Assembly (NCBI GenBank): GCA_033439255.1
Contig: CM065887.1
Coordinates: 2,108,001 to 2,172,000 of the forward strand
Source: Hericium rajendrae
Taxonomy: Eukaryota > Basidiomycota > Agaricomycetes > Russulales > Hericiaceae
Reading direction: 5' to 3'
Length of the DNA stretch: 64,000 bases
In this document: positions 2,242 to 39,530 of the stretch, one piece after another
Layout of the letters: every line of letters starts with the position of its first letter
Numbering within the stretch: position 1 is the first letter of the stretch
The notes under the pieces: model-generated
Databases searched by the model: none
The model's input: the letters and a program-made list of their open reading frames with translations, nothing else
Told to the model about the DNA's origin: nothing
Translations under genes and position numbers: made by a program

Positions 2242-2664
2242 TGTCACAGATCGCTCCATTTCTCTCCACCTTCTTCTCTGCCATCAAGGCATCGCATCAG
2301 TCATGTGCTCTAGCAGTCCCATCACATGTTCACTTCCTCACATGACCTGGGGCTATCCTTCACCCATGCCCTTGTTCCCCTTTGGGACATCCTATTGTTC
2401 TCCCTCCCATTGTTCTCCTTTTGGCCACCATTGTTCTCACTCTATTGTTCGACCCGTTATGGTGTCCATTGTTCTTTTCCCATTGTCATCCCAGTACTTA
2501 TAGGCTCCCTGTCGCTCACCTATTTCTCTAGATTGTCCATTTTGTCTGTACCATACTGTACCTCCAATACAGGTCACTGCACTGCTAGTCGCTCTCTGCT
2601 CTCTCACTCTCATCATTGCTGGTGACTTGGGTGGTTCTCTGCTGTCTACAACCGAGTCTTGACA
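2242..2664 (+). repeat. 5' LTR of gypsy-1
   Basis: 423-bp long terminal repeat bounded by TGTCA and TGACA. It matches the reconstructed 3' LTR (8909-9087 plus 11933-12176) over its full length with no gaps. I count 19 differences, all transitions. It contains TG-rich repeats such as CATTGTTCTCC and a TATA-like box in its second half. Confidence 0.95.
2497..2539 (+). promoter_or_regulatory. LTR promoter: TATA-like box and inferred start
   Basis: CTTATA at 2497-2502 lies about 30 bases before AGATTGTCCA at 2530-2539. That ten-base block is the reverse complement of the primer site just after the LTR. In self-priming retrotransposons of the Tf1/sushi group the RNA 5' end is the block that pairs with the primer site, so I infer transcription begins near 2530. 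The pairing is visible; the start site is inference. Confidence 0.55.
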
Positions 2665-9087: not shown

Positions 9088-9479
9088 CATCTGAGAAAGT
9101 CCAAATTTATATAGCTACCAGCCATAATTATCTAAGTTATATGAGCTATATACAAGCCTTATACAGATATATATTTCTATAGTAGCTATATAGACTACAT
9201 AGCCTTATATGCCATCTATGTATGTTATATAGCTACTGAGCATAGCTATGAGAGCTATAGACACATCTCTACATGCTATAGAGCCTATGTAGCCTATGTC
9301 AACTATAGAGTCTTGTAAGTGTAAGCTATATGCTATGACATCTATGAGATATACAGCAAGTATACACATTATCCAGAGTATACATGTCATATAATGCACA
9401 CAAAAGGTAAATCAAATTCAACTTTATTATACAAGTCATGACTGCTCTAGTACAAAGATTTAGAAGTTCTAATTATATT

Positions 9480-10500
9480 GAGAGCCGACACGGGCACCAG
9501 TGCCATTAAGTGCCATCACGCGTCGATGCTTGTCAAGCGCACAGGTGCAGAGGGCGTGAATACGATGACGTATGCGCGTGCAGCAGGACGCGTGGGCGCC
9601 GGGATAGCGCACGAGAACAGGGTGTTGCACGGGCGTGCGGGATGGCGCAGGAGTGCGGGGTGTTAGATGCGGATGTGGGGTATCGCACGGTCGTGCTGGG
9701 CGGTCTGCACGCACGTGTAGCATTGAGTGCGCGGGGCATGTACGCATGCAGCGTGTCGAGCCCGGGGCATGCGGACCAGGAGCGAGAGGGCATGCGTGCG
9801 TGAGGGATGCTGCAGGAGAGCGCGCGGCATTGCGCGCAGTGGGATGTTGCGGTGCATCTGGGGCGTAGGGTACGAACGTGGTGGGGCATTGAGCGCGCAT
9901 GTCCAAGCCCCGGACTGGCCGTGATGCGCGAGCGCGGGCTGCTGTACCCATATCCGGGGCATGAGGGACGAGCGCGGGGCTTGAGGCGTGCATGCGGGGC
10001 TGCAGGGCATGTATGCTAAGTGCTGTATGCGAGCGTGGGGCATTGTGCGTGTCGGCGGGGCGTTGCAAGCATGCACGGTGTTACCCACGAGTGCGGGCCT
10101 TTGTGGGGCATGGGGCAAACGTGCGGAGTTGCGGGCCATGGGCACGAACGACGTCCAAGTCCTGTTGCCATGGCAACGGGACTCTACAGCGCAGGTATGC
10201 ACGGACGTCGACAGCATGGGCCATGACGTGGCCCGCGCATGCATGTCGTTGACGACGTGCAGACGGTGCGTCACAGCGGGCATAATCCGTGGCCGGGCAC
10301 GTGAAAGTGGGGAGTGGGCCGCGATTGTCGTGGCATATCGGGCGCGGGATGTTGGGGTTGCGCGAGCAGGCAACTGGAGGTGTTGGTAGCGGCGTTGAGA
10401 AGACAGAGGGGGCAGTTGAAGGCGGAGGGGGTGACGGGGACATGGTACGGCAACGGGAGGCATGGAGGTGTCGACGGAGGGCATGGGGGTGTCGAAAGAA
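9480..10500. repeat. GC-rich low-complexity block of element A
   Basis: About 1 kb of DNA dominated by GCATGCG, GGGGCATG and CGTGCGGG words, strongly alternating purine-pyrimidine, G-rich on the plus strand. Several frames stay open here but share no sequence with frames in the matching blocks of B, C and D, so I treat it as non-coding. It holds the X-box-like palindrome at 10159-10182. Confidence 0.7.
10159..10182. promoter_or_regulatory. X-box-like palindrome in element A
   Basis: A 24-bp palindrome centred on GTTGCCATGGCAAC (10164-10177), flanked by GTCC and GGAC. The core equals the known RFX-family X-box consensus GTTRCCATGGYAAC. Equivalent palindromes occur in elements C and D. Confidence 0.6.
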
Positions 10501-10502
10501 CC

Positions 10503-10530
10503 GAGTGTTGCTCGAAAACGAGCGACACTC
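10503..10530 (-). ncRNA. Conserved hairpin of element A
   Basis: GAGTGT then GCTCG pair with CGAGC then ACACTC around an AAAA loop, with one T-G wobble. On the minus strand it directly follows an apparent 46-base intron (donor GTAAGT at 10575, branch CTAAC, acceptor CACAG at 10530). The same arrangement with different but still pairing bases is present in B, C and D. Confidence 0.6.
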
Positions 10531-10942
10531 TGTGTTAGTTACAAAGAAATGATTTAAAAAACTCGTTTTACTTACCTGCCATCCTCTGCCTGCTGCAAAC
10601 CCGATCCTTCTGTCTTGATGCTCAATAACGAAAGAAGAGGGATGGAGGGAGGAAACACAGAGAAGAGTGAGTGGTGGGAGGAGGTCTCAACGTGTTCACT
10701 CGAGGCTTCAGCCACCAAATGCGCGAAGAGACACAACAAATCAAATAAAACAGCAGAAAATACGGAAAAAAGACACGAGCTACAAATATTGTCTCTCAGT
10801 ACATAACATGAGCTATCTTTATAACAAGCCTAACATATACTATTGAACAGCAGAGTTAAGATATCAAAATCTAATACTTAGTCCCTGGTGCGGCGCTCGG
10901 CAACGCCCGGCAGCTACAATTCTCGGCTTCACCCGGGATTCG

Positions 10943-10948
10943 TATATA
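10943..10948 (+). promoter_or_regulatory. TATA box of the rightward transcript of A
   Basis: TATATA in the context CGTATATAAGGCC. Upstream lies CCCGGCAGCTACAATT (10908-10923), also found upstream of the TATA boxes of B and C on the minus strand. A C/T-rich leader follows and runs to the donor at 11139. Confidence 0.6.
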
Positions 10949-11138
10949 AGGCCTGCGCGACATGCCTTCCCTCTTGCTCTTTAACCCCCATCTCTTGCCA
11001 CGTCAGCACGTTCGTCATCGTCACTCGCTCACTTGTTGTCGTCGTTCGCTCGCTCGTCGTCATCATTGCTCTTTTTATCATTGGCATTGCTCTTTCTGTT
11101 GTTGTTATTTATTGCTCGTCGTTGCTATTTTTTTTAAA

Positions 11139-11405
11139 GTAAGCTTTTACTCTTAGTCTCTTACAGCTTATACTAATATCTTTATACTTATTACACTACT
11201 ATTGTAGCTCTACTAGATAAGCTTTGTATCATGTCATGTACTAATGTCTTCATGCTGTCTTTAGAATTTCGCTTTTTTATTAGTTTGGTAAGCTTTCATG
11301 TGTTATCTTTGTTATATTCTAATGCTAATGTTTTCTTTTCTTAATTAGATTTTTGCTTTTTGTAGTCTTTTATGTTAGTCTTGACTAATGCTTATATCTT
11401 TATAG
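11139..11405 (+). ncRNA. Micro-exon chain of element A
   Basis: Four successive apparent introns separate very short exons. Introns: 11139-11207 (branch TACTAAT), 11226-11264 (branch TACTAAT), 11288-11348 (branch GCTAAT), 11362-11405 (branch GACTAAT). Exons between them are 18, 23 and 13 bases; two contain the core TTTCGCTTTTT or TTTTGCTTTTT. The pattern matches B and C, so I think it is a spliced transcript, not chance. No long frame is created. Confidence 0.5.
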
Positions 11406-11932
11406 AAGTTGTCTTAATCTCTATTCTATATAATGTAGTGTAGTAATGTATTATGATGTTATAGTTAGTAAATAAAATTTGATTTTGTGCTTAACTTTTG
11501 TTGTGATGAATTTAATTGTATTGTGCTATAATAAAGTTTTATGTTCTAGTTGAGCTACAAATTTATATGATAAATGTATATTTTATAGATAGTACATAGT
11601 GAGTTAGTATAGTATAGACAAGGTAAGCTTTATAGTATACAGATAATATATAGTGAGGTAGCATAGCATACTTAATATAGACTTTGTAGTCTTTGTAGCA
11701 GAGTTAGACTACATAGTCCTCATAGCTAAGCCTATAGCTCTATAGCTATCATAGCTACCCTTGTAGCTCTATAGCTATCATAGCACTCTATAGCTGTCCC
11801 TAATAGCTATATAGCACTATATAGACTAGAGCTCTCTATGGCCAGATATATACAAAAGAGGGTAGCTATGGAGTTATGCAATCTATATAAGATATAAAGC
11901 TCTCTATAGCTACCCGAAATTTCTCAGATGTT

Positions 11933-12176
11933 TTGGCCACCATTGTTCTCACTCTATTGTTCGACCCGTTATGGTGTCCATTGTTCTTTTCCCATTGTCG
12001 TCTCAGTACTTATAGGCTTCCTGTCGCTCGCCTATTTCCCTAGATTGTCCATTTCATCTGTACCGTACTATACCTCCAATACAGGTCACTGCGCTGCTAG
12101 TCGCTCTCTGCTCTCTCGCTCTCATCATCGCTGGTGACTTGGGTGGTTCTCTGCTGTCTACAACCGAGTCTTGACA
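11933..12176 (+). repeat. 3' LTR of gypsy-1, right part
   Basis: Remaining 244 bp of the 3' LTR, ending CTTGACA at 12176. Together with 8909-9087 it makes 423 bp. It is followed by the right target duplication GCATC at 12177-12181. Confidence 0.93.
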
Positions 12177-15090
12177 GCATCAATGTGGCACGAGTATGTA
12201 AAAATGATTAGCCCTGGTCGAAAACAGAAGGAACATGAGAAGAAACCCCCGTAGCCACATTCAGCCAGCTGCTGGGCCTTGGTGAGACCCAACTGGAAGG
12301 CATTGTGCAGCTGCAGGGGACTGGGACGATGCGAATACAGGAATACTCACCAACTTTGATGTGCTAGCATGCAGCGTTGGCATGCTAGAGCTGCTGAGCT
12401 GGCACGCGTGCTGGCCCATGCATGTGCCGGCTTCTCTGTGTGCCATGCTAGTGTAATGTGCTGGCGTGTGGAGGCACTGGTGTGGAACGGTGTAGTGTGC
12501 TGGAATGAGATGGAGGGGACGAGGATGCGGATAAGTCGTGTGGCATCGCATCCCTGCGATGAGGAGCTATAGTCAGTAAGAGAAACGGTGCCACACACCT
12601 GTTTTGCCACCGCAGTCCCCTGCCACTCTCCTCCTTTCCTGCACCTGCTCCGGCATTAGCATTGGCGTTGACACAGTGCTGATGTGCTGGCACGCAGTAC
12701 GATAGGGCAATGAGCCCATGAGCTAGCCGTCGTGGCCCCGTGGTGCTTGTCGATGTCGCGTGGGTGGTGTGAAGAGGCTTTTGAGGCCAGCAGTGATGCA
12801 GACAAGACACGGGGGTCGTTGAAGGGAGGTGGCCACTGCAGACTGGAAAAAGAGAGCATAAGGGAGGGAGAAGGAAGGAGGCACTGAGAGGCAGGAGGCA
12901 GGATGAAGGAAGGAAGGAGGCAACGTTCGACGAGACGTAGCACCATTCGGCAAATGCAGAACTCAGTGCCACACTTATGTTCGAGCATCGATTCTGGAGT
13001 CCAGAAATTAGTTTAAATTCTGAGAATAATGTGACAGCCTATGCTCCCAATAACACATATGTTTGTTAAGTTTTGTATAGATCGAGGGAGATTAAGAATG
13101 AGTATCTGTGGAACTATGGTAATTTGGTGCATGCCTGTTCTTAGTGCTTGATGCGCGAGCTCGAACGCTCAGTTTCGGGCATGTCGGGCATGAAATTTGA
13201 GGCTCATTTCCTTCATGCAGCATCCTCAATACCACTGTCACTTTGAGGACCTGTTTTGATTGATGCTAATACACACTTTCCGATTTTTATTTGTTTTTCA
13301 GAGCTCCTCAGCATACAAATCTTCGTGATCTTTGTGCTTTTTGGTGTGCTCAGGCATGATTTCCAATGTGTGTGAGCCCTGAAGATCTTGAATAGTGACA
13401 GAAAAAATTGTAGCTCAATATGTGTGAATCTTTCCTATACATCATTTCACTGAGCCTGAACCTCGAAATTTGTCAAACTCAGGGCTCTAGTATACGAGAA
13501 TCGAGGAAACCAGCTCAGTTTCACTGTATCTTGGTCATTCTGGGTCAAATTTGGCATGGAATTTCTTTTAATCTCGCAAGGGGACTGTATGGTACACGAT
13601 ATATCTATTTGACTCAAAATGCGATGCTGAAATGCCCCCTAAATGTCACAGAGCACTCCTCCTCCTCCAGCTTTGGGCAGCTCGGGGTTCAGCCACCGGC
13701 TCCTCGGCATTGTCCGAATTTCCCTTTCGAAAATGTTCAGTTTGCGACGCAGCGTCATCTTTCCTCTCCACCTCCTTCCTCGATATGCACATCCCCGACG
13801 TCTACATCTAATGCCACGCCAGCACCCCACTCTCTCTCGACAGCACATTCGTGCTCCCGCCCCACTGTAGCCACCCCGCCTGCCCACCTCCGCGATCCCG
13901 GTCGATGCCAGCACACCCACGTGCCAGCACACCCACCTCCCATGCCTGCAAGTGCACTACCATCAACAAATCGTGCTCGCAAATGCGCTAGTCCCTGCGC
14001 ATGACTGCGCCTCTGCCAGCACTGTGCTGTGTCTACAGCAGCATGCCCATTGCTCGCCTCTCCCTAATGCACCAATATAGCTGCATGCTCGTGTGAGCCC
14101 CAAGCCCCACGCACCATGCACTGCCTGCACTTGTTGGCCTGCACTAGTAACACATGCACCCACACCAAGAGCCTGTTTCAACACATCGCCAGCAAATGTA
14201 GCAAGCGCAGTGGTGTGCACGGGTGAGTGCGTGGCAGGAGGCAATGGTGAGCGCATGGCAGGCAGCAGTGGGCATGTGGGCGAGTGAGTGGTGGGCAGCA
14301 GGAGGCACGTGTGTAGCGCCGAGCACATGGGTGAGTGCGTGGTGGCGTGCCCATCGCTGGCAGCCACGTGTGTGGCAGGCAACAGCGGGCAGCGGCATGA
14401 ATGTGTGCGAGCGTGCAGCAGTGGGCAGGCAGCACACGGCAATGGGCGATGGCAAGTGCCTGGTTGCGTGGTGGCTGCGAGTATGCGGGTGAAGGTGAGC
14501 ATGCAGCGATGGGCAGCGGCAAGCATGCAGCGGTGGGCAGCAGCGAGCATGCAGCTGTGGGTGAGTGCGAGCGCGTGCAGGGGGTGAGTGCGAGCGTGTG
14601 GTGGCAGGTAGCAGTGGGTGCACCATGGCAGAAAGCAATAGTGGACGCATAGTGGTGGAGGGTGACAGCAGGTGCATGGCACAGCAGAGAGTGAGGGCAG
14701 GTGCGCGTCGTGGTGGAGGGTGGGCGTGCATCATGGTGAAGGGTGGCGATGGGCACTGGTGGAGAGTGGCAGTAGGTGCATCATGGCGAAGAGCGGCAGC
14801 AGTCGCACATCGTGGCTGAGACTGGCAGCGAGCGCATGTCATGGTGGAGATCGGCGGCGAGTGCGACAGTGACAGTGTGCCATGGTACAGGCATGGACAT
14901 CGCAGTGGAGGGCAGCAGCAGGCACGTGGCACGGCAGAGAGCGGTGGCGGGCATGTGGCACGGTGGAGTCAGGTGCATGGCAGGAGCGCGACAGGCTGAT
15001 CAGGCGATTAGATTGTAAGCAAGATTAATCTGTAGATATGTCTTTCGTCCAGTGTACATTTAGCTAAATACACATTTAGCTAAATTTGTG
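12177..15090. other. Non-coding region with GC-rich low-complexity blocks
   Basis: I recognise no gene. 12240-12970 and 13640-14990 are rich in GTGCTGGCACG, GCATGC and GTGGGCAGC words and leave many chance frames open. 13000-13640 is ordinary-complexity DNA without a supported gene. Near 15045-15085 TTTAGCTAAA occurs twice, just before recognisable gypsy-2 coding sequence. The region may hold decayed relatives of the CATCTG elements, but I find neither their ends nor their hairpin here. Confidence 0.5.
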
Positions 15091-17301
15091 GTAAGTCGCC
15101 AATGGCAGATCACTGATGATTTTTCAGTGGCAGGTGGCAGGTACCATGTATTTAGTTATATGGCTACCCTTAGTGGTGACGAGCAGTACCTCAAGCAACT
15201 CTGCCTGGATGAAAAGCCTAAACCCCTGATCATCTCGTGTGAGTCTGCAGCATTACACTCTATTGCAGCACTCATAGATCATCAAGAACCAGTCAAGTAC
15301 ATCTTGGACCCAGGTTCTCAGGTCATCTCCATGTCAGAGAGCGTCTGCTATACCTTAGGCCTGTTGTACGACCCCACAATTATCCTCACTATGCAATCCG
15401 CCAACGGCAAACTTGATGACTCGCTGGGCCTGTGCCGAAACATGCCTGTAGTCTTTGGCAACATTGTTCTCTACCTCCAAATACACGTCCTTTGGTCACC
15501 CACCTATGATATCCTACTCGGACGCCCCTTCGATGTGCTTACCGAGTCCGTTGTGCACAGCTACCACAATGAAACGCAGACCATCACCATCTTCGACCCA
15601 AACATTGGTGAAGCAGCTACAATCCCCACCCACCCATGCACTGACATTCAGTATACGCTTGCGGCAAAGGAGGATTTTCGCACTTTGATAATTTGATCGA
15701 AGATCAAGGAGAGGTCACTTTCATTGTTGATTTCGACTCAGAGACGTCGCAAATCACAGCTTATGCTGCTATACCCCCAGAATGTTCCGAAAACCCAGAA
15801 AAACATCAAGATCATCTTCAATCTCTTTATCTCTATGCCTGTGATGCCTCGCTTCTTGACTCTAGCCTGGGAGGTCCTTCGCTTTCAGATGCCCCCAATA
15901 AATCTAATTTGTTGTCTGTCTTTCTCTCCACTACAGCCTGCAAGTCCGCTTCCACTTCCAAGCAAGGTCACCCGAGTCCACCACCTCCTGGCACGATGAA
16001 TACCGGTCCTCCTGTCACCTCTTATGCTGCAAAGAAATACAAGCCAGTTGCCCAAAAAGTCTGCCCAGTATTTACGAACCTCCCCGAGTGCTTTCGGGTT
16101 CTTCATAACATCAAGGGCGATCCTCTCCAAGACCTGCTGGAATTATCTCCCAATCTGCCCCCGTTTGCTCCCACCACCCATTATACCGAAGAAAGAAAAG
16201 TGGTTATCAATTGTGCCCATCCAGAAGGTTTCCTCTGGCCCGCCAAGCGCGACCTACTCCACCATTTCATGTGCCTCCATGATACTGCCTTCGTCTGAGA
16301 CGATTCAGAGTGGGGACATTTCCATGAAGACTTCTTCCCCTCAGTGGTTATGCCGGTGATACCGCACACCCCCTGGGTCTTGAGGAACCATCCAATCCTG
16401 CCAGGCATCCATGACAAGGTCTGCAAGATCATCTGTACCAAGATTGCCACCGGCGTATATGAGCCTTCGTTGTCGTCATATCGCTCATGCTGGTTCTGCA
16501 TCACCAAAAAGGATGGCACAAGTCTGCGCATTGTGCACAGTCTCGAACTGCTCAACAAAGTCACCATCGCTCACTTAGGCATCCCATCTTTTACCGACCA
16601 GCTCGCTGAGCAGTTCGCCGGGCGTGCTTGCAGTGGCATCCTCAATCTCTATGTTGGTTACAATGAGCGACTCTTGGTGGAGGAGTCCCGCAACATGACC
16701 ACGTTCCAAACCCCATTCAGGCCCAAACAGCTTGTTACGCTGCCCATGGGGTGGACGAACTCCGTGCCTATCTTCCACGATGACGTTACTGAAATCCTGT
16801 GGCCCAAAATCCCAGCTGTCACCATGCCTTATATCGATGATGTCCCCATTAAAGGCCCAGCTACCTGTTACGAGTTGCCTGGCGGAAATTTTGAAACTAT
16901 ACCCTGGAACCCCGGTATCCATCGCTTTGTCTAGAAACACTTCCAGGGTGCGAACCGTGTTGTCCAATGCATGAAATATTGCAGTGGTACCTTCTCAGGA
17001 AAAAGACTGTCCTTTGCACACCAGAGATCATCGTCATCAGCCATAGATGCATGCCAGAGGGCCATTTGCCAGAACTCAGCAACCTCGCCAAGGTCAGCAA
17101 CTGGCAACCTTGTACCGATCTCTCAGACGTTCGTGCTTTTCTCAGGACCATTGGCGTGGCCTGCATCTTCATCAAGAACTTTGCAAAATGTGCTCATCAT
17201 CTAGTATGGCTTACACGCAAAGACACCCCATTCGAGTTCAGCCCAGACCACTGCACAGGAAGACCTTAAGCAGGTGCTACTCGCATCACCCGCCCTGCAC
17301 G
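15091..17301 (+). pseudogene. pol: gypsy-2 pol, protease and reverse transcriptase part
   Basis: Frame 15091-15696 holds a retroviral-type aspartic protease region (KYILDPGSQVISMS near 15298-15340, then DILLGRPFDVL near 15510-15540). The next frame (15693-16298) holds the linker KKYKPVAQKVCPVFTNLPECF and YTEERKVVI, seen before the RT in this basidiomycete gypsy lineage. Reverse transcriptase follows at about 16344-16934 with CFITKKDG-like CWFCITKKDGTSLRIVHSLE, LPMGWTNSVPIFHDDV and YIDDV near 16829. TGA after FV (near 16297) and TAG near 16932 both sit where Trp is expected. The frame then reads to CAC at 17298-17300, where element B interrupts it. Confidence 0.85.
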
Positions 17302-17771
17302 CATCTGAAAAACTTGCAAGTGGTACATAGCTCTATAAAGTCTACATAGATTTCATAGTTCCATAGCACTGCCCTTTTCTCTGTAGCCCACATAGCTACA
17401 GGGAGATGCTATATAGTGCTATAGAGCTCAAGGATGATGCTATGGAGCATTATCATAGCTATGTAGCTGACTATGCAGCTACCATAGTATGCATAGCTAT
17501 GAGAGCTATAAGTACCTATCAAAGCTATGAGACTTATGTTACTTACATATTCTATATTCAATACAATGCTATAAATTTTGATCAAATTTACATAGCAAGA
17601 TCCAAATCAAATGATTCAAATGATCATACAAATATAAACTTTGTTTAATGCATCAAGATTATATTTATATTATTATACTACTACAAATAAAGATACTACT
17701 ATTAATCACAAAAAGATAAAAACTACACTTACTACTAAAAGATAAACACAAGATAAGTATACTAGACTTAC

Positions 17772-17938
17772 AAAGATTATAAAAAGCGAAAATAGTCTAC
17801 AAAATAAAATTAGTAACAAACCAATAATAACAAAAGATTTAAAGACATACCAGAAGTGTTAAAAAGCGAAAATTAGAAAACACTAAGATATGAATGACAT
17901 AAGCATAAGATAGCAAACCTAAAGAAGAAAGACTTACC
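17772..17938 (-). ncRNA. Micro-exon chain of element B
   Basis: Read on the minus strand: exon 1 ends at 17938 (TCG before GTAAGT); intron 17937-17883; exon 2 17882-17851 (32 bases); intron 17850-17797 with branch TACTAAT; exon 3 17796-17772 (25 bases); donor GTAAGT at 17771. Exons 2 and 3 both contain ATTTTCGCTTTTT. The same core is in A and C. Confidence 0.55.
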
Positions 17939-18028
17939 GAAGGTAGAGAGGAAAAGCTCGAGAAAAGTCGGAGCGAACGGGGAATGTAGTGGTTGAAGAG
18001 AGAGAGAGAATGTGCATCGTGCGAGGGT

Positions 18029-18035
18029 TATATAG
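18029..18035 (-). promoter_or_regulatory. TATA box of the leftward transcript of B
   Basis: TATATAA on the minus strand, followed by a C/T-rich leader (CTCTCTCTCTC) up to the donor at 17937. Upstream on that strand is CCCGGCAGCCACATTTGG, matching the promoter block of A and C. Confidence 0.55.
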
Positions 18036-18434
18036 GTGAGTGCGGGTTTGTCCGGCGGAGCCCCAAATGTGGCTGCCGGGACGCGGCCCATGCACCGCGT
18101 CAGACACCAAGTCCCAGATCTCACTGACTTCGTGCCCCTTTCCAGTAGCTTAGAGTACCTTAGTTAGATATGGATCCCATTCAATCGAATTAAATTTGCA
18201 AACACTATGTACTGTCGTTTTTTTCTGAATTTGTGCGATTTTATTTGCTTTACTAAGTTCGAAAACATTCCAGCTCGCACACGTTCAGTGGCTGAAGCAC
18301 CGAAGTCGCGTCGTTTGACTTGGACAACACTGACTACCTCTCTTCGCATTCTCTTTAACTCGTTCTTCTCTTCCCTCGTCGCTCGTCAAGTCGAAGGTCG
18401 GAAGGGCTTGGTAGGAGCTGAGACAGGGCATAAG

Positions 18435-18509
18435 GTGAGTAAATAAAGTCTTTAATACTTGTGTTCGTGCTAATCTCGAGGGTACCGCTCGTTGTCGAAC
18501 GGTACTCTC
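18435..18509 (+). ncRNA. Intron and hairpin of element B
   Basis: Donor GTGAGT at 18435, branch GTGCTAAT, acceptor CTCGAG at 18480: a 46-base intron, the same length as in A. The hairpin GAGgGTACCG / CGGTACtCTC (18478-18509) begins at the acceptor. Confidence 0.55.
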
Positions 18510-19840
18510 ATCTCTTTTCGTTCACTAACCCTCCCGCGACACCCCACCATCTTCTACATCCCGCCGCTCCCCTCGTGCACATCCGCGCCTCTTCTCATCA
18601 CTCACGCCTTCGACATTGCTCACTCCTGCCTACGACACTGCATGGGTCCACGCATCACCCCCGCACCTTTGCTCCGCCCCTGCCGGCCTCCCGCAGCCTG
18701 TGCCCCCTCGTGCGCCAACCACCCATGGTTCTACCAATGCCCGCACATGGCTCCATCTGCCCTCATCTGCCCATGCAGTCAGCTCTGCACGACAGCACCA
18801 GAGATGGCTATGCCCGCCTCGCGAACGGCCCGACAAGCTCGCCAGCATATGCAAAACCAGCATACAGCATGCCCATGCCGGTGTACGACCCCGTCTGCGC
18901 CCGCATGTCCACACACATGCATGCATGGCCGCACACGACAGTGCCAGCACACGACCGCGCACCCTGCGCCAGCGCACAGATACGCATGGGCCCCGTCAAC
19001 ACTGCCCAAGCCCACACATGCATTCTCGCACAGCAGCGTCAGCGCACGGACACAACGCACACATTGCGCGAAGCCCCATCCCGCACTGCACGGATCCAAA
19101 GGACCACGCACAGCCGCAGCTCGCACATGAGCCAAGCAGCCTGTCTGCGACCCTCTCCCCTCGTGCACATCTTGCAACCCTCGCGCATGTCCCGATGTGT
19201 TGCCGCCTCCTTGTGCACGCTACTGCCCTCTTGCGCACATCGCCGCCCTCTCATCATCCTTTTGCGCCTGTCGCCGCCCTCTCGTGCCCGTTGTCACCCT
19301 CTCGCACCCGTCGCCGCCCTCTCGCGCCCGTCGCCGCCCTCTCGCGCCCGTCGCCGCTCTCTCGCGCCCATCGACGCTCTCTCGCGCCCATCGACGCTCT
19401 CTCGCTCATGTTGCTGCCCCTTCGTGCACGTCGCTGTGCCCCTTGCACACAGCTCGTGCCTTCACAGACGGCTGCAGCCCTCTGTGCATGCCCTCCCACA
19501 CATTGCCCGTGGCTCGGGCATCAAGAGCATGACTCGTGCGCATGCGTACGACTCGCAGGCTTTGTGCCTAGTCTGTAAGCTTCGCGCACGGCCTGCGCAT
19601 ATTGCACACCAATCGCGCCCCCTGCATATGGCCCGAACACGTCGCGCGTGGTTCGGTCATCTCGTGCACAGTCCGTGCACCTCGCGTGCGACCTCCACAC
19701 GAGTCCCGCACCTTGCACGCACGAACCTCGCATGTGGCCTCTGCCTGCTGCGTCGACATCCCGCATGCCGCCTTGACAACGCACATGTGCCCCTAGCGAT
19801 GCACGCAATGCATACGCTAGGACTGAGTTGTGATAATTGT
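18510..19840. repeat. GC-rich low-complexity block of element B
   Basis: C-rich on the plus strand with tandem CGCCCTCTCGCGCCCGTCG-like units near 19260-19410 and many GCATGC and CGCAC words. A 461-codon frame is open across it (18461-19846), but its product is low complexity and has no counterpart in A, C or D. I regard it as non-coding. No X-box palindrome was found in this copy. Confidence 0.65.
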
Positions 19841-20189
19841 AGCTAGTAATTACTGTAGCTATGGTAGTAATATTATTAAATTCACTTTGAAATTCTCCAT
19901 TGTAGTGCTATATATTCAGCAATATAATGTATTTTGACTTGATGCCTTAGATGTCTATCTGACTTATCATAGAGCCCATAGCTTGCATACCATGCCTATG
20001 ATATTATGTAGCAATCATAGCTATCCTTCATGACTACATACTGCTATATACCTTGTACCTACTGCTATGGAAACTATGACAGCTATCATAGGTCTATATA
20101 GATGAGGAGAGAACTACATAGACCACATAGCATTGTGATAGACCACATAATATAACACTAGGCTATGTAGATTTCACATTTTTCTGATG

Positions 20190-21205
20190 CGTGATAGATT
20201 ACGAGTCTCCCACCTCAGTGATCCTGAGCGTCAACACCTCCTATATTGCCATCGGTTACCTACTCTGTCAACAGGATGTGGACGACCCCAAAGTTTGCCG
20301 ATATGTCTGCTTCAGCTCTATTGCTCTGAACGACTGTGAGGCGCATTTCTTCCAATCAAAGCTGAAATTATATGGCCTGCACCAGAGCCTTCACGCACTC
20401 AAACTATGGCTCATTGGCATTCACAACCTGATTATCAAAGTCGACGCCTGGTATATATCTGGCATGCTGAATAATCCCAATCTTGCCCCTAGTGTGTCCA
20501 TGAACTGGTGGATCGTCAGCATCCTCATGTTTCAATTTACCCTGGTTCATGTCCCTGGCAAGAAGCACGGACCAGATGGCCTCTCCCGGCGCTGCTCCCA
20601 GGACAATGATGCACCTGAACCTGATGACAACTTCAACAACTGAGTCGACCATGCTTATGACTTTGTCCACATGATCAATGTGCCTTGGATCAGTCACGAC
20701 CACCTCAGCTGGCCCAACAGCTCATCTCGACCAATGTCGCCACCAGCAATTTTGTCATGCCTCCTCTGCAAGACCACTTGGCGTCCTACGCAGATGTTCC
20801 AAGGTCCGAAAAGTCCCTCCTCACAGATGCCCGACTGCATGCTGTCACCGACTTCCTGCCCCATCCGATCCGCCCTGATGGATTGACAGACCGGGAGTAC
20901 ACTTGCTTTCTGTGTTATTGCTGCGACTTCTTCATGAAAGGTGGCTGCCTCTGGAAGTGCACCAAGACAAATGCGCACAAACTAATGCTCCCACCGACTG
21001 GCTGCTAGGCTGCTCTTGTTGAGACTCACAAGTCCGCGGGACACTGTGGCATCACCGCAACTGCCCTCCTGCTCACGGTCCATTTCTGGTGGCCTTTTAT
21101 GGGCTCGGATGTCGCTTGGTTCATCTGTTTGTGCCATATTTGCCAAGCATTCCAGATCCACAAAGTTCTTATCCTGCTGACGGTTGCGATGCCTGTGCCT
21201 TTATT
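20190..21205 (+). pseudogene. pol: gypsy-2 pol, RNase H and integrase zinc finger
   Basis: Continues the protein after element B. RNase H: VILSVNTSYIAIGYLLCQQ (the first catalytic Asp appears as Asn), then FTLVHVPGKKHGPDGLSRR near 20530-20590. After a TGA near 20641 the frame goes on into the integrase zinc-binding domain: HKSAGHCGITATALLLTVHF, FWWPFMGSDVAW, CLCHICQAF (HHCC residues all visible, 21027-21155). A TAG near 21006 lies where relatives keep an open frame. It stops at 21205, where element C enters. Confidence 0.82.
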
Positions 21206-21762
21206 CATCTGAAAAATGTACCAGTACTATGTTGCCCTATATAGCTTATATAGAAGGCATAGGTCCATAGCAATCCCCTTTTATACATAGGGCCCTCATA
21301 GCTAAAGGGCAGTCTATGATAAGTTATGTAGTCAGATAGGATTGCTATACCTAGCTATGATAGCTATGCTAGCTATCAGAGCATAAGACATAGCTATCAT
21401 AGCTATAGAAACTATGTTAGCTATATCAATTATATTCTATATGCTTATTATCATATTCTATCTAGCTTATTAGGATTGCTATCTACTTTATATCACCTAC
21501 AAGTACTATATTGCCTAACAATGCTATACAAACATTTTCATTACCTACATTGTTTTGTAAGCTTATAGCTATTACATCTTAAACAAGCAAAACATCGAAA
21601 ATTTAAAAGCATATCATTGCATCAAATACACCAATACATCAAAGACACTAATATACAATAGCACTACATTAATAGGACTACATTATACTATAAGATTAGT
21701 TAGCCTATATATATTTACAAACATTAAGTCAGACTAAATCAGATAAAAGATACAAGACTTAC

Positions 21763-21945
21763 TATCCAAAGACAATAAAAAGTGAAAATGAAACCTTAAG
21801 TCAACAACTTATTGTAAGTAAATGATAGAAAGAAAGACCAAAATATAAGACTTACCAAAGAGAAGAAAAAGCGAAAATGTTCAAGTCTACAGATATAATA
21901 TAAGCATAAGTATTAGTTAACAATGTAACAATATGAGAACTTACC
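21763..21945 (-). ncRNA. Micro-exon chain of element C
   Basis: Read on the minus strand: exon 1 ends at 21945; intron 21944-21887 with branch AACTAAT; exon 2 21886-21856 (31 bases, core ATTTTCGCTTTTT); intron 21855-21795; exon 3 21794-21763 (32 bases, core ATTTTCACTTTTT); donor GTAAGT at 21762. Exon lengths and core match element B. Confidence 0.55.
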
Positions 21946-22040
21946 GAACATAAAGGGTTAGAGAGAGAGAGGAGAGAATGGCAAAAGATGGAAGATGGTA
22001 GTGGTAGGGAAGAGAGAGAGGACACGCATCGTGCATGCCT

Positions 22041-22046
22041 TATATA
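22041..22046 (-). promoter_or_regulatory. TATA box of the leftward transcript of C
   Basis: TATATA with AAGGC following on the minus strand, preceded by CCGGCCAGCTACAATTTGGG and followed by a C/T-rich leader. It matches A (CCCGGCAGCTACAATT) and B. Confidence 0.6.
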
Positions 22047-22506
22047 TGTGAGCACGTCGGAGCCCAAATTGTAGCTGGCCGGTGGTTGCCGGGCGTCGTG
22101 GCAGAGGCTACTGATTCAGACTTCACTAACGTAGATTGGTTGCTCAAGAATGTACAGTAGAATAGAAACATTTCTGGCTCATTCATAGTGTAGATATAAC
22201 AATTTTATATGTGCTACATTTTTTTTGGATTTTATAACATTTGATTTGATTTGTTGAACTCGAAACCGCCAGTCGCTGAGTCGAGTGCTGTGGCTGCACT
22301 CGACGCGCGACTTGGTACATTTCTTCGTTCACCATTGCCTTCACCTGTCCCTTCGTCTCCCCTCGCCTCCCCTTGTTTTCCATCTCGCTCTCCCTCCATA
22401 CACAATACGTGGTGTTATTTAATGATCGGGAGGACTTGTAGGGGTGCTGGGGCTGTCAGGTAAGCAAACAAATATCTATTTTTTTTTGTCTCGTGCTAAT
22501 CAAACA

Positions 22507-22535
22507 AATATCGCTCGTTGCAAATGAGCAATATT
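22507..22535 (+). ncRNA. Conserved hairpin of element C
   Basis: AATAT and GCTC pair with GAGC and ATATT, with one C-A mismatch, around a nine-base loop. It follows donor GTAAGC (22460) and branch GTGCTAAT. Unlike A, B and D there is no AG right before the hairpin, so splicing in this copy may have changed. Confidence 0.5.
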
Positions 22536-22605
22536 CGTGTTTTCTCCTGACCACCCACCTCGCCCATGCCAACGGGCATGCTCCATCCCTTCCCGTTGTT
22601 GCCTA

Positions 22606-22629
22606 GTCTCGTTGCCATAGCAACGAGAC
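22606..22629. promoter_or_regulatory. X-box-like palindrome in element C
   Basis: Ten-base inverted repeat GTCTCGTTGC / GCAACGAGAC with CATA between. It resembles the palindromes of A and D and the RFX X-box. Confidence 0.55.
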
Positions 22630-23720
22630 TCGACGTGCACTCGCCCTCTACCACGCAACATCCCCACTTCAACACCCAAGCCCTACCACGCTCGCATCTC
22701 TGTGCGACCCCGCCCACATGTGCATGGCCACGCACGGCCCCGCTTGCACGAGCAGAGCCAGTATGCCGGCGACTGTGCACATGGTCGCGAATGACCGTGC
22801 CAGCACATGCATGCACGTGTGCACATCGTGGGCAGCTGTGCAGGGGATGTCATGTGCGGGCAGCTGCGGACGACCCCGCCAGCTTGTGCACGCATGGCGC
22901 GGGCAGCTCTCCGCTGCTTTCTAGTATAAGCCCTCGCCTCCACTTCCACTCCCGCCCCCGACTCACCCTCACCCCCACTGTCAGCAGAAACGCGTGCATG
23001 TGGCTCCGCCAGCATGCATGGGGCCATGCACGCAGGCAAGTCCACACGTACGACCATGGATGACCATCAGTGCATCAGCGCCTGCCAGTGGACAACCACG
23101 CCAGCACCAGCTGCATACGAGCAGCCACAGACAATCCATCCAGCGCACGGATGGCACCACTCTGCCCCTGCACAGCCAGACAACCGTGCCAGCACGGAAA
23201 CCATGCACGCATGCATGGCGAGCGCTGCCATGCCCCGCCTTGCCAACATGCGGGTGGTCGCCCGCACCCCGCCTGCTCCCCACCGCGCCCTCGTCTTCTT
23301 GCTGCCGCGCCCTGCCTGCACATGCCCGTTGACACCCGCACCAGCCCAGCCACGCGGACGACCATGCCAGCCCATGCATGCACAGCTCTGCCAGCATGCG
23401 GGCTGTCACGAGGCAGCTGCGCACAGACCCGCCAGTGCACAGGAACACGCGTGGCCTCACCTGCCAGCGTGGGGCCACGCAGGCTGACGACTGCATGCAT
23501 ACGGCCACGCCAGCGCGTGCACGAGCTTAGGCATGGTGGGCATGGTGTGCACAGCCGCGCATGACCACGTCTGCGGGCATCCATGCATGCGCGCAATGAC
23601 GGCGCCAGCAGCCATGTAGGCGGCATCTCCGCGTGCGAGGCCATGCACACCGGCGACAATGCGTGCATGACCACATCAGTGCGGTTGCGCTCGTACATGT
23701 GCCCGGGCAGCTTGTCTGCA
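22630..23720. repeat. GC-rich low-complexity block of element C
   Basis: Rich in GCATGCA, CGCCAGC and CCACGC words, C-rich on the plus strand like element B. Several overlapping chance frames are open on both strands; none looks like a protein domain. Confidence 0.65.
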
Positions 23721-24053
23721 CGCGCGACCTCTGATAATGTAGAAGACTTGTGTATCATACTTCTGATCCTTTAAATTTGAAACATTTGACTTGAACTTTT
23801 TGGAAGCCTATCTGACTTATTGTAGTCAGTACAGTAATAATAGGAGCCATAGCCCCCCTTTCTGAGTACAATAGCTCTATGTATTTAATACTCATAGCTA
23901 TGAAGGCTATGTATTTTGTACTGTCTGCTATGAAGGCTATGGCAGCTCTCATAGCTCTACATAGCTTGACAAGTCAGAGCCATAGCTATCATAGCATACC
24001 TATAGAATCCATAGTTTGCCTTTTGGCTATGTAAAAATTGGATTTTTCAGATG

Positions 24054-25109
24054 TTTGCAAAGATGTACATGGACACCATGCACCTGCTGAAGTCCAACAA
24101 TATGCAATACCTGGTCCAAGGGTGTTGCTCTGTGTCCTACTTTCCTGAATGGTGCATGCTGCGCAAAGAATGCAGTGAGCATATTGCTGATTGGATTTAC
24201 CAAGACATCTTGTACTGCTGGGGTAGGCTCACCAAAATTGTGTCCGACAATGGCGGCCCGTTTGTTAAAGCCTTGATGCAGCTGGAAAAGAAGTACCACA
24301 TCCAGCATATCCGCATCTCAGGCTATAACTCGAGAGCCAATGGCATCGTTGAGCGTGCACACTTTGACGTATGCCAAGCACTGATCAAGGCTGCTGACAG
24401 TGTGGAGAAGAATTGGAGCTACTCAGCCCACTCAGTGTTCTGGTCGGAATGTATCACCATCCGCCAGTGCATGGGCTGTTCCCCATACTTCACGGTAACT
24501 GGTACGCACCCCCTGATGCCGCTTGATATCGCTGAAGCCACCTACCTGCTGCTGCCGCCCGAGGCAATCTTGTCCTCTACTGACCTGATCGCCTCCCATG
24601 CTCTTGCCCTGCAGAAGCGTCAAAAGGACCTTCAGCGACTTCACAGCCATGTCTATGAGGCCCGCCTCCAGGCAGCATGAAAATTTGAACTGGAACATGA
24701 ACGCACGATCTGCGACTTTGACTTTCGCTGCGGCGAACTGGTGCTTGTCTGCAATTCCACGTACAGCACCAGCCATTCCCAGAAGACCAAACCATGCTAC
24801 CTAGGCCCTTACCTCGTCCTTGGCCATAACAAGGGGCATGCTTACCTCTTGTGTGAGCTCGACGGTACGTTATTCGACCATCCCACCGCAGCCTACCGCA
24901 TTGTCCCGTATTTTACCCATACCATCCTCGATCACCTGCCATTGGAAGATTTCCTCGATGTCAGCATTGAGCAGTTCAAATGCTTACTCACCTCCACCGT
25001 CACAGACCTGGATGATGAAACTGCTGGTAGCGACCTCGGCAAATTCGACAGGTCCCGACCAAGTTCACCCGCAGTGTCCTCTGCCCACTTGACTAGTGAG
25101 GAGGACTGA
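24054..25109 (+). pseudogene. pol: gypsy-2 pol, integrase core and C-terminus
   Basis: Integrase catalytic core: first Asp in KMYMDTMHLLK (near 24071), second in IVSDNGGPFVKAL (near 24245), Glu in SRANGIVERAHFDV (near 24350), so the DDE triad is present. A TGA at about 24678 interrupts the frame, which then continues through ELVLVCNSTYSTSHS and KPCYLGPYLVLG, the typical integrase C-terminal part, to TGA near 25107. No chromodomain is visible, unlike gypsy-1. Confidence 0.85.
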
Positions 25110-37891: not shown

Positions 37892-38239
37892 CATCTGAAA
37901 AATTAGAAATCTATATAGCTCAGTACTAATGTATGTGTCCTAGCATAGTGCTATGAGGTCTATATAGCCACCCTTGCATATATATAAAGCTATGCACACT
38001 AAGATAGCCTTCATAGTAGCAGGCAGAAGGTGCATAGACCTATGTACCTGTAAGCCATTACTATCAGAGCTATGTACCATCATAGCCTTGCTATGGACTC
38101 TATCAGCCCTATGTCAAATATGATAAACTCCATAGTCAGAAGTCAGAATTTTTAATTTTATTATATCAGAGTCATGATTGGTACAAGGCATCTAACTACG
38201 AAAACTAGTTGTAATTGAAAATATAATCTAGGCAGCCAT

Positions 38240-38960
38240 GGTGCACATGTAGACTACACCGTCCACATCAAGTGGCAGCTATGCGCAGGCTACTGACATC
38301 GTGCGCGGGGTATTGATGCTATGTGCATGATGTCAATACCCTATCTGTGACAGTGGGATCACATACAGGCTGTCGGAGTCTGTGCACATGGCATTATAGT
38401 CATATGCAGATGATGACGACATGTGCGAGGTGCGCAGAGGGCAGAAAAGTGGCCAGGAGGGTAGAGAGGCAGAGCGCAAGGTGCAGACATAGCATGGAGC
38501 GTGTGGATGCAGCGCAGAGAGTGAGGACATGGCACAGAGGGTAAAGACGCAGTGTGGAGGGTGGAGACGTAACACAGAGGGAGCAGAAGTGACGCAAAAG
38601 GTACAGAGAATGCACGAAAGGCAGCATGGAGGCGACAGAAGGCGTGGAGGCACCGGGGACTGCATGGAGGTGGCACGGATGGCATGGAGGCAGTGCGGAC
38701 AGCATGGAGGCAGCGCGGATGGTGTGGAGGGAGTGTGGATGGCATGGAGGCAGCACAAATAGCGTGGAGGATGCACAGATGGTGGAAATGCAGCACAGAA
38801 GGTATGAAGTGGATGCAGAAGGCTTGGAGGGCATGTAGACACGGTGAAGGGGCAACAGACAGGGTTGGAGGTGACACGGATGACATAAAGGCATCCTAAA
38901 GGGCATAGAACATCACAGAGGGCACGAACATGGTCGCAGATGCAGAAAACGAGCACAGGG
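38240..38960. repeat. GC-rich tandem block of element D
   Basis: Imperfect tandem units of about 15 bp around GATGGCATGGAGGCAG (clearest 38630-38770), G-rich on the plus strand like element A. Frames open on both strands encode only repeats. Confidence 0.65.
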
Positions 38961-38979
38961 GTGCAGCACGATGCATCGA

Positions 38980-39003
38980 GTCTTGTTGCCATGGCAATGA
39001 GAC
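38980..39003. promoter_or_regulatory. X-box-like palindrome in element D
   Basis: GTTGCCATGGCAA core flanked by GTCTT and TGAGAC; 24-bp palindrome matching A and C at nearly every position. Confidence 0.55.
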
Positions 39004-39286
39004 CTGACAGTTATTGTTGTATCATTGTTTTGGCCATATGGGGTTGCTGCGAAGTGGTATCGACTGTCAGAGCAGCGTGGAGGGCGTGTGCAGCATGAAG
39101 ATGGGCATGGGCAGGTGCGAGGACAGGTGCGGGCTGCACTAGGGGCATCAGAGCTACACACAGAGAATGTCGCATGTTGAAATGCAATGGTGATGTGAGG
39201 GACGTGGCAAGGGTGTGAGGAAGGCTGCAAGGATGTGAAGAAGACAGAGAGTGAGGGTGATGGGGGCCGAAGGCACAAAAGAACAA

Positions 39287-39315
39287 GAGTATCGCTTGGA
39301 TAATGAGCAATACTC
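39287..39315 (-). ncRNA. Conserved hairpin of element D
   Basis: GAGTAT and GCT pair with AGC and ATACTC, one C-A mismatch in the stem, at the end of the apparent 50-base intron. Confidence 0.5.
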
Positions 39316-39530
39316 TCAGAATTAGTACAATAAACACAGATATATGGCTTTTTTTTTTACTTACCTTGAGCCCTCCAAGTCTCCAACTAATCTTGCTGAC
39401 CTTCAGGGTGACGAAAAGCGAGGAGAATGATGAGGAGGGTGGGATGCAAGGGGAGCTGAGTGAAGGATAAAGACAAGTCAAACGACGCACCATGCTTGAA
39501 CTACTGAAAGTGCGAGTTTAAATGTTTTGA

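Follow-up and report, generated by a model that had tools for sequence, protein, structure and literature searches.

In a 64,000-nucleotide stretch of the Hericium rajendrae genome (GenBank assembly GCA_033439255.1, contig CM065887.1, positions 2,108,001 to 2,172,000 of the forward strand; hereafter the window), three complete copies of a transposable element, A, B and C, and a partial fourth copy, D, probably belong to a large, non-autonomous family of cut-and-paste DNA transposons. Some copies of this family are recent, its ends are of the Plavaka type, its transposase would be supplied in trans, and its noncoding core would give rise to RNAs. The interior, rather than the ends or the insertion footprints, is what makes the family unusual.

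Ends, target duplications and empty sites

Elements A, B and C are flanked by inverted ends reading CATC(T/A)GA(A/G)AAA, with a 2-bp duplication on each. Positions in the window are as follows, the strand being that of the hairpin unit described below for the elements.

9088..11930, minus strand: element A, 2,843 bp, ends CATCTGAGAAA, duplication TT
17302..20189, plus strand: element B, 2,888 bp, ends CATCTGAAAAA and CATCAGAAAAA, duplication CG
21206..24053, plus strand: element C, 2,848 bp, ends CATCTGAAAAA, duplication TT
37892..39530, minus strand: element D, which retains the left end, the hairpin, the intron signals and a stretch richer in GC; right limit approximate, set by eye
2242..2664, plus strand: uninterrupted stretch of long terminal repeat (LTR), 423 bp, empty counterpart of the A site

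The initial annotation of this DNA had given the same end coordinates and lengths for A, B and C, the same left end for D and the duplications TT, CG and TT, all of which hold; the duplications are exactly 2 bp, not 3. The end motif that it regarded as shared, CATCTGA(A/G)AAA, applies to A and C, while the right end of B (CATCAGAAAAA) departs from it by one base. The right end of D was sought and not found, only the left end (37892) being located. Both ends were read in 12 elements (A, B, C, L029 and L039-L046). An exact 2-bp duplication is found in 11 of these and a 3-bp duplication in none; flanks lacking 2-bp duplications, which would have spoken against the initial reading, are seen in L040 only. 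CATCAG stands at one or both ends in eight elements (B, L029, L041-L046) and the remaining ends are CATCTG, except for one CATCTC. CATCTG and CATCAG interchange within the family, with one of each in B, L043, L044, L045 and L046.

Removal of A had been predicted to restore a 423-bp LTR, and uninterrupted counterparts bear this out. The two flanks of A are contiguous, sharing 2 bp, at window positions 2242-2664 (423 bp) and at locus L013, with 95-98% identity, and both counterparts hold one copy of TT where the flanks meet. Similarly, a complete element at L029:4994-8373 interrupts a Plavaka gene, and its insertion site is uninterrupted in Plavaka paralogues, of which L026 and L027 match letter for letter. 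For both of these insertions, paralogues preserve the exact empty site. The right flank of B opens directly into a retrotransposon pol gene, where positions 20191-20640 contain an RNase H domain (PF17917, E 2.8e-07). That of C also opens into pol, at an open reading frame (ORF; 24051-24677) that resembles a gypsy integrase by eye and is not so named by Pfam; the only Pfam match of this ORF is a weak one to Gemini_AL1 (E 0.0055, below cut-off), which is probably spurious.

Family size, length and relatedness

Genome-wide, the exact end CATCTGAAAAA occurs 486 times (20 for the reversed control), CATCTGAGAAA 547 times (4) and CATCAGAAAAA 146 times (33). A chance origin of the ends is excluded because the counts for CATCTGAAAAA and CATCTGAGAAA lie far above those of the reversed controls. 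The whole-genome search for ends and hairpin that had been proposed as a check thus returned a large family, which the exact-end counts suggest to comprise some hundreds of copies.

The length distribution was read on contigs C1 and C2, where all end lists are complete (224 exact ends; coordinates taken from the lists). Among 77 adjacent convergent end pairs, 46 span 2,628-3,306 bp, with a median of 2,860 bp, and none is shorter; other end arrangements fall at 2.2-3.4 kb in 6 of 76, 3 of 33 and 5 of 36 cases. Miniature inverted-repeat transposable elements (MITEs) are hundreds of base pairs long and consist of terminal repeats with little interior. The present elements are not short in this sense, their length being nearly constant at about 2.8 kb with no convergent pair below 2,628 bp on these two contigs, and they differ from MITEs and ordinary deletion derivatives in this length and in their noncoding core. 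Ends are clustered in parts of C1 and C2 (also in L005-L007 and L039), with apparent nested insertions.

Full-length relatives of A were found at 96, 92 and 76% identity, and those at 96% and 92% indicate that some spread is therefore fairly recent. Relatives of B are many, partial (67-92% identity), more diverged than those of A and mosaic. Such mosaic similarity would fit an interior that derives from a cellular gene for a long noncoding RNA, which a short Plavaka-type element took up a single time and which has since travelled as a passive passenger, with recombination among copies. Such a passenger would be expected to disappear through deletions, however, and the lack of adjacent convergent exact pairs below 2,628 bp on C1 and C2 makes this origin unlikely. 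The argument is qualified by one shorter element, L046 on contig C9 (2,312 bp), which has lost part of the GC-rich block described below.

The hairpin and its putative intron

The interior consists of divergent arms with splice signals, an apparent intron that leads into a palindromic hairpin, and apparent microexons with TTTTCGCTTTTT. No transposase is recognisable inside A, B or C, in agreement with the initial annotation, and its spliced arms, hairpin and GC-rich block are likewise supported, splicing being read from splice signals. Its view that only the layout is conserved is correct among A, B, C and D, which share only short scattered matches beyond their ends; it does not extend further, as A and B have sequence relatives and different elements share a conserved sequence over the intron-hairpin stretch. 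A search of Rfam with window positions 9000-40500 gave ten matches at E up to 10, all below gathering scores.

10503..10575, minus strand: donor, branch point and hairpin of A (hairpin 10503-10530)
18435..18508, plus strand: donor, branch point and hairpin of B (hairpin 18479-18508)
22460..22535, plus strand: donor, branch point and hairpin of C (hairpin 22507-22535), without the usual AG between branch point and hairpin
39286..39364, minus strand: donor, branch point and hairpin of D

In an alignment of 13 elements, the unit spans 82 positions and comprises a donor GTRAG, about 40 nt, a branch point CTAAY and then a hairpin of 13-14 bp. Base pairing is found in 94.7% of the cells of this alignment, compared to 30-51% in slid controls. 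Double changes occur in 5 of the 13 stem pairs, and the covariation score was reached by none of 500 shuffles, for units chosen partly by pairing and related copies whose kinship is uncorrected. When the consensus hairpin was searched with at most three mismatches, 179 places were found genome-wide against none for the reversed control. With two stem pairs freed and the rest fixed, there are 88 and 90 strand hits altogether; among the 54 places listed, 53 are complementary at both pairs, in four different combinations, where shuffling gives a mean of 18.1 and a maximum of 30. The compensatory stem changes expected of a structured RNA are therefore present, although independent double changes are few, at least three, the copies being related.

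The hairpin keeps company with splice signals. An AG lies 4-8 nt 3' of the branch point, ahead of the hairpin, in 12 of the 13 units, and the hairpin would therefore open the second exon. When sampled loci were searched with the hairpin pattern alone (at most four mismatches), 12 of 16 places had a donor and a branch point upstream; L039 and L045 have the donor only, L044 the branch point only and one place neither. At five mismatches most further matches look like chance. Some observations count against so regular a unit: the script that chose the 13 units accepted only candidates with a donor, a branch point and 10 or more of 12 pairs, which over-states these features there; C has no AG at this position; and the donor is mutated in L044 and the branch point in L045.

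Hairpins and ends also occur together. Of the 17 hairpin sites listed on C1 and C2, 16 lie 0.8-2.4 kb from an exact end in the proper orientation and 13 have both ends; the corresponding averages for shifted controls are 1.5 and 0.3. A first comparison over C1-C3 with two end motifs only had placed an end beside 14 of 31 hairpins; the addition of CATCTGAGAAA, predicted from element A, and the restriction to C1 and C2 raised the matches to 16 of 17.

The main rival to an RNA structure under selection is that the palindrome is a DNA feature, either a product of template-switch correction of quasi-palindromes, which can alter both arms at once, or the site of a dimeric DNA-binding protein. The near-perfect, palindromic stem and the freely varying loop fit this reading, which we regard as quite possible. 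On the other hand, wobble pairs are tolerated in the stem, and the position of the hairpin behind a donor and a branch point at 12 of 16 places in the pattern-only search is as expected for an RNA feature.

A second palindromic stretch, ACTTCGGTGC..GCACCGAAGT, occurs in L043 and L044 (offset about 985-1025 in B) and is partly conserved 5' of the right-arm donor among the B relatives L041-L046.

Putative microexons and the GC-rich block

The other arm can be read as a series of short exons that carry TTTTCGCTTTTT or a near variant, with one or two per element and three in L029. Sampled sequence of 319 kb contains 21 exact copies of TTTTCGCTTTTT, whereas none of ten local shuffles contains any; two of these copies fall in the Plavaka copies L036 and L037 instead. 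On the far side of the hairpin lies a GC-rich block.

17781..17872, minus strand: two putative microexons of B (17781-17792 and 17861-17872), each with TTTTCGCTTTTT
21777..21877, minus strand: two putative microexons of C, with TTTTCACTTTTT (21777-21788) and TTTTCGCTTTTT (21866-21877)
11350..11361, plus strand: left-arm motif TTTTTGCTTTTT in a putative microexon of A
9488..10487, minus strand: GC-rich block of A, C-rich on the hairpin strand, no conserved frame
18502..19801, plus strand: GC-rich block of B, with an open frame of 461 aa; in its relatives L041-L043 and L046 this frame is much shorter
22606..23705, plus strand: GC-rich block of C

Both parts of the interior bear on whether the elements could be autonomous, with the GC-rich block or the spliced arms encoding an unrecognised protein. 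Long low-complexity open frames are present in the block at window positions 18461-19849 in B (461 aa) and at L040:1273-2544 (423 aa), the sense strand is more open than the antisense strand in 12 of 13 blocks, and in three of 13 (B, L040 and L046) the longest open stretch is equalled by fewer than 5% of dinucleotide shuffles. However, the other ten lie within the shuffle range, the frame defined by the hairpin runs for anything between 0 and 455 aa to its first stop across the 13 elements, and the block differs in length and sequence even among B relatives. A conserved protein in the block was rejected on these grounds. Furthermore, the ORFs of A and B, the 461-aa frame included, have no Pfam match, and the lengths of the putative microexons (for example 31, 32 and 47 nt, by eye) differ by non-multiples of three, so that no frame is kept. 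Autonomy is accordingly very unlikely. The interior is most likely noncoding, as judged from the sequence, and its arms are predicted to be transcribed and spliced.

Relation to Plavaka and other CMCT transposons

According to the initial annotation, no named superfamily combines these traits. This does not stand: PlavakaB of the CMCT clade is printed with CATCA..TGATG ends and 2-3-bp duplications (PMC12730594). The same genome also contains both Plavaka elements and short CATCAG-ended elements that show 2-bp duplications. Plavaka genes are abundant in it, with 132 matches to PF18759 genome-wide. In one Plavaka element (L037:924-7192) the ends are CATCAGTA (CATCAG) and the duplication is CA; the borders of this element agree with those of its alignment to another copy, L036. 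An automated terminal-pair search of 20 Plavaka loci gave two candidates, with second-copy support for L037 only. The end-like CATCTGGAAA was also observed in the Plavaka loci L033:2473, L034:6778 and L035:6939, in L033 and L034 at their alignment limit; the other end of the L033/L034 Plavaka was sought and not found.

The CATCAG-ended short elements resemble the present family in their CATCAG..CTGATG ends and 2-bp duplications (2 bp in 13 of 14 pairs, 3 bp in none). They measure 211-581 bp, compared to about 2.8 kb and a conserved core in the present elements. Such elements, which are apparently Plavaka MITEs, are seen for example at L024:1104-1504, L025:8502-8902, L021:5606-5816 and L038:3763-3973.

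The present family shares with PlavakaB the CATC.. ends and the 2-bp duplications, 2 bp lying within the 2-3 bp of PlavakaB. It differs in having CATCTG rather than CATCA as its commonest end, no transposase gene, and a noncoding interior with splice signals and a hairpin. In addition, Plavaka elements here carry TTCAGG or TCTGA repeats, whereas the subterminal repeat of the present family is TAGCTAT. The genome-wide search places no PF18759 match in the window (C10:2108001-2172000), and the elements could therefore only be non-autonomous members of Plavaka. Ends and footprints are Plavaka-like and the elements seem to behave as Plavaka-dependent ones, which makes them candidate, unproven members of the group.

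Several observations weigh against a Plavaka source. The printed PlavakaB end is CATCA and the present ends are mostly CATCTG, while the CMCT clade generally has CA..TG ends (in most cases) and 2-5-bp duplications (PMC12730594). The flanks of L036 lack a matching duplication, as do those of L040, the single miss among the 12 elements. Within the 20 Plavaka loci, TAGCTA clusters occur only in L029, L031 and L032, inside or beside CATCTG ends of the present family, and none lies at Plavaka ends. The longer autonomous relative with the same ends that had been suggested as a target was not encountered on C1 and C2, where none of 21 longer adjacent convergent pairs (3.4-15 kb) encloses a PF18759 or PF02992 match (by eye). 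In the two long pairs that were read, L039 and L040, none of the ORFs of 120 aa or more looks like a transposase by eye.

These two loci (4.9 kb) were accordingly rejected as autonomous elements; L039 carries a nested CATCAG-ended insert, and L040 shares its right part with L039 at 97%. Two further candidates were discarded, namely the CATCTGAAAAAC end at C4:1950758 beside a Plavaka match, which falls in coding sequence, and the pair C2:4508247-4510972 beside a PF02992 match, which lies just outside the pair.

Alternatively, another CMCT transposase of the same genome might move the elements, such as that of EnSpm/CACTA (Transposase_21, PF02992). EnSpm/CACTA elements and their defective derivatives have subterminal repeats too, and they share CA..TG ends and short duplications with the present family. 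PF02992 has 31 matches in the genome, 29 of them over cut-off, and CA..TG ends are common across the CMCT clade (PMC12730594). The fungal EnSpm families of that source, however, make 3-bp duplications and have CAC..GTG ends, while the present elements have 2 bp, never 3, in 12 elements and lack CAC..GTG ends; no PF02992 match was reported in A, B or C, and the longer end pairs on C1 and C2 enclose none (by eye). This alternative is rather improbable. No description of elements like the present ones was found in the literature searched, most subscription papers being outside reach.

Proposed mechanism and significance

The transposase most likely comes from a Plavaka-like element in trans, because the ends and the 2-bp duplications are of the type seen in PlavakaB and the CMCT clade. 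It would act on the CATC(T/A)G ends, where it would cut, and on the subterminal TAGCTAT repeats. A divergent promoter region may drive two spliced noncoding RNAs. One of these would enter the palindromic hairpin directly after its first intron and then run into a C-rich tail, and the other would carry microexons with UUUUCGCUUUUU. The RNAs might be kept since copies lacking them would not spread. The interior may help in cis, for example by maintaining access to the copy or by letting it escape silencing, as the lack of short derivatives among the exact end pairs and the conserved RNA-type signals suggest.

The usual view is that a non-autonomous DNA transposon requires nothing beyond its ends. 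In this family, some hundreds of copies retain a noncoding core: their length hardly varies, splice signals and a covarying hairpin are kept and a 12-base exon motif recurs, while a large part of the remaining sequence has diverged too far to be aligned. Tentatively, and with less confidence than for the family as such, this could point to a class of terminal-inverted-repeat transposons without a protein gene of their own, parasitic on the Plavaka transposase and in need of their own structured, spliced noncoding RNAs in cis, so that full-length copies would multiply and deletion derivatives would not. The idea of a DNA transposon that depends on, or profits from, an RNA of its own is thereby made testable, and Plavaka, a little-studied fungal group, gains a large candidate dependent family.

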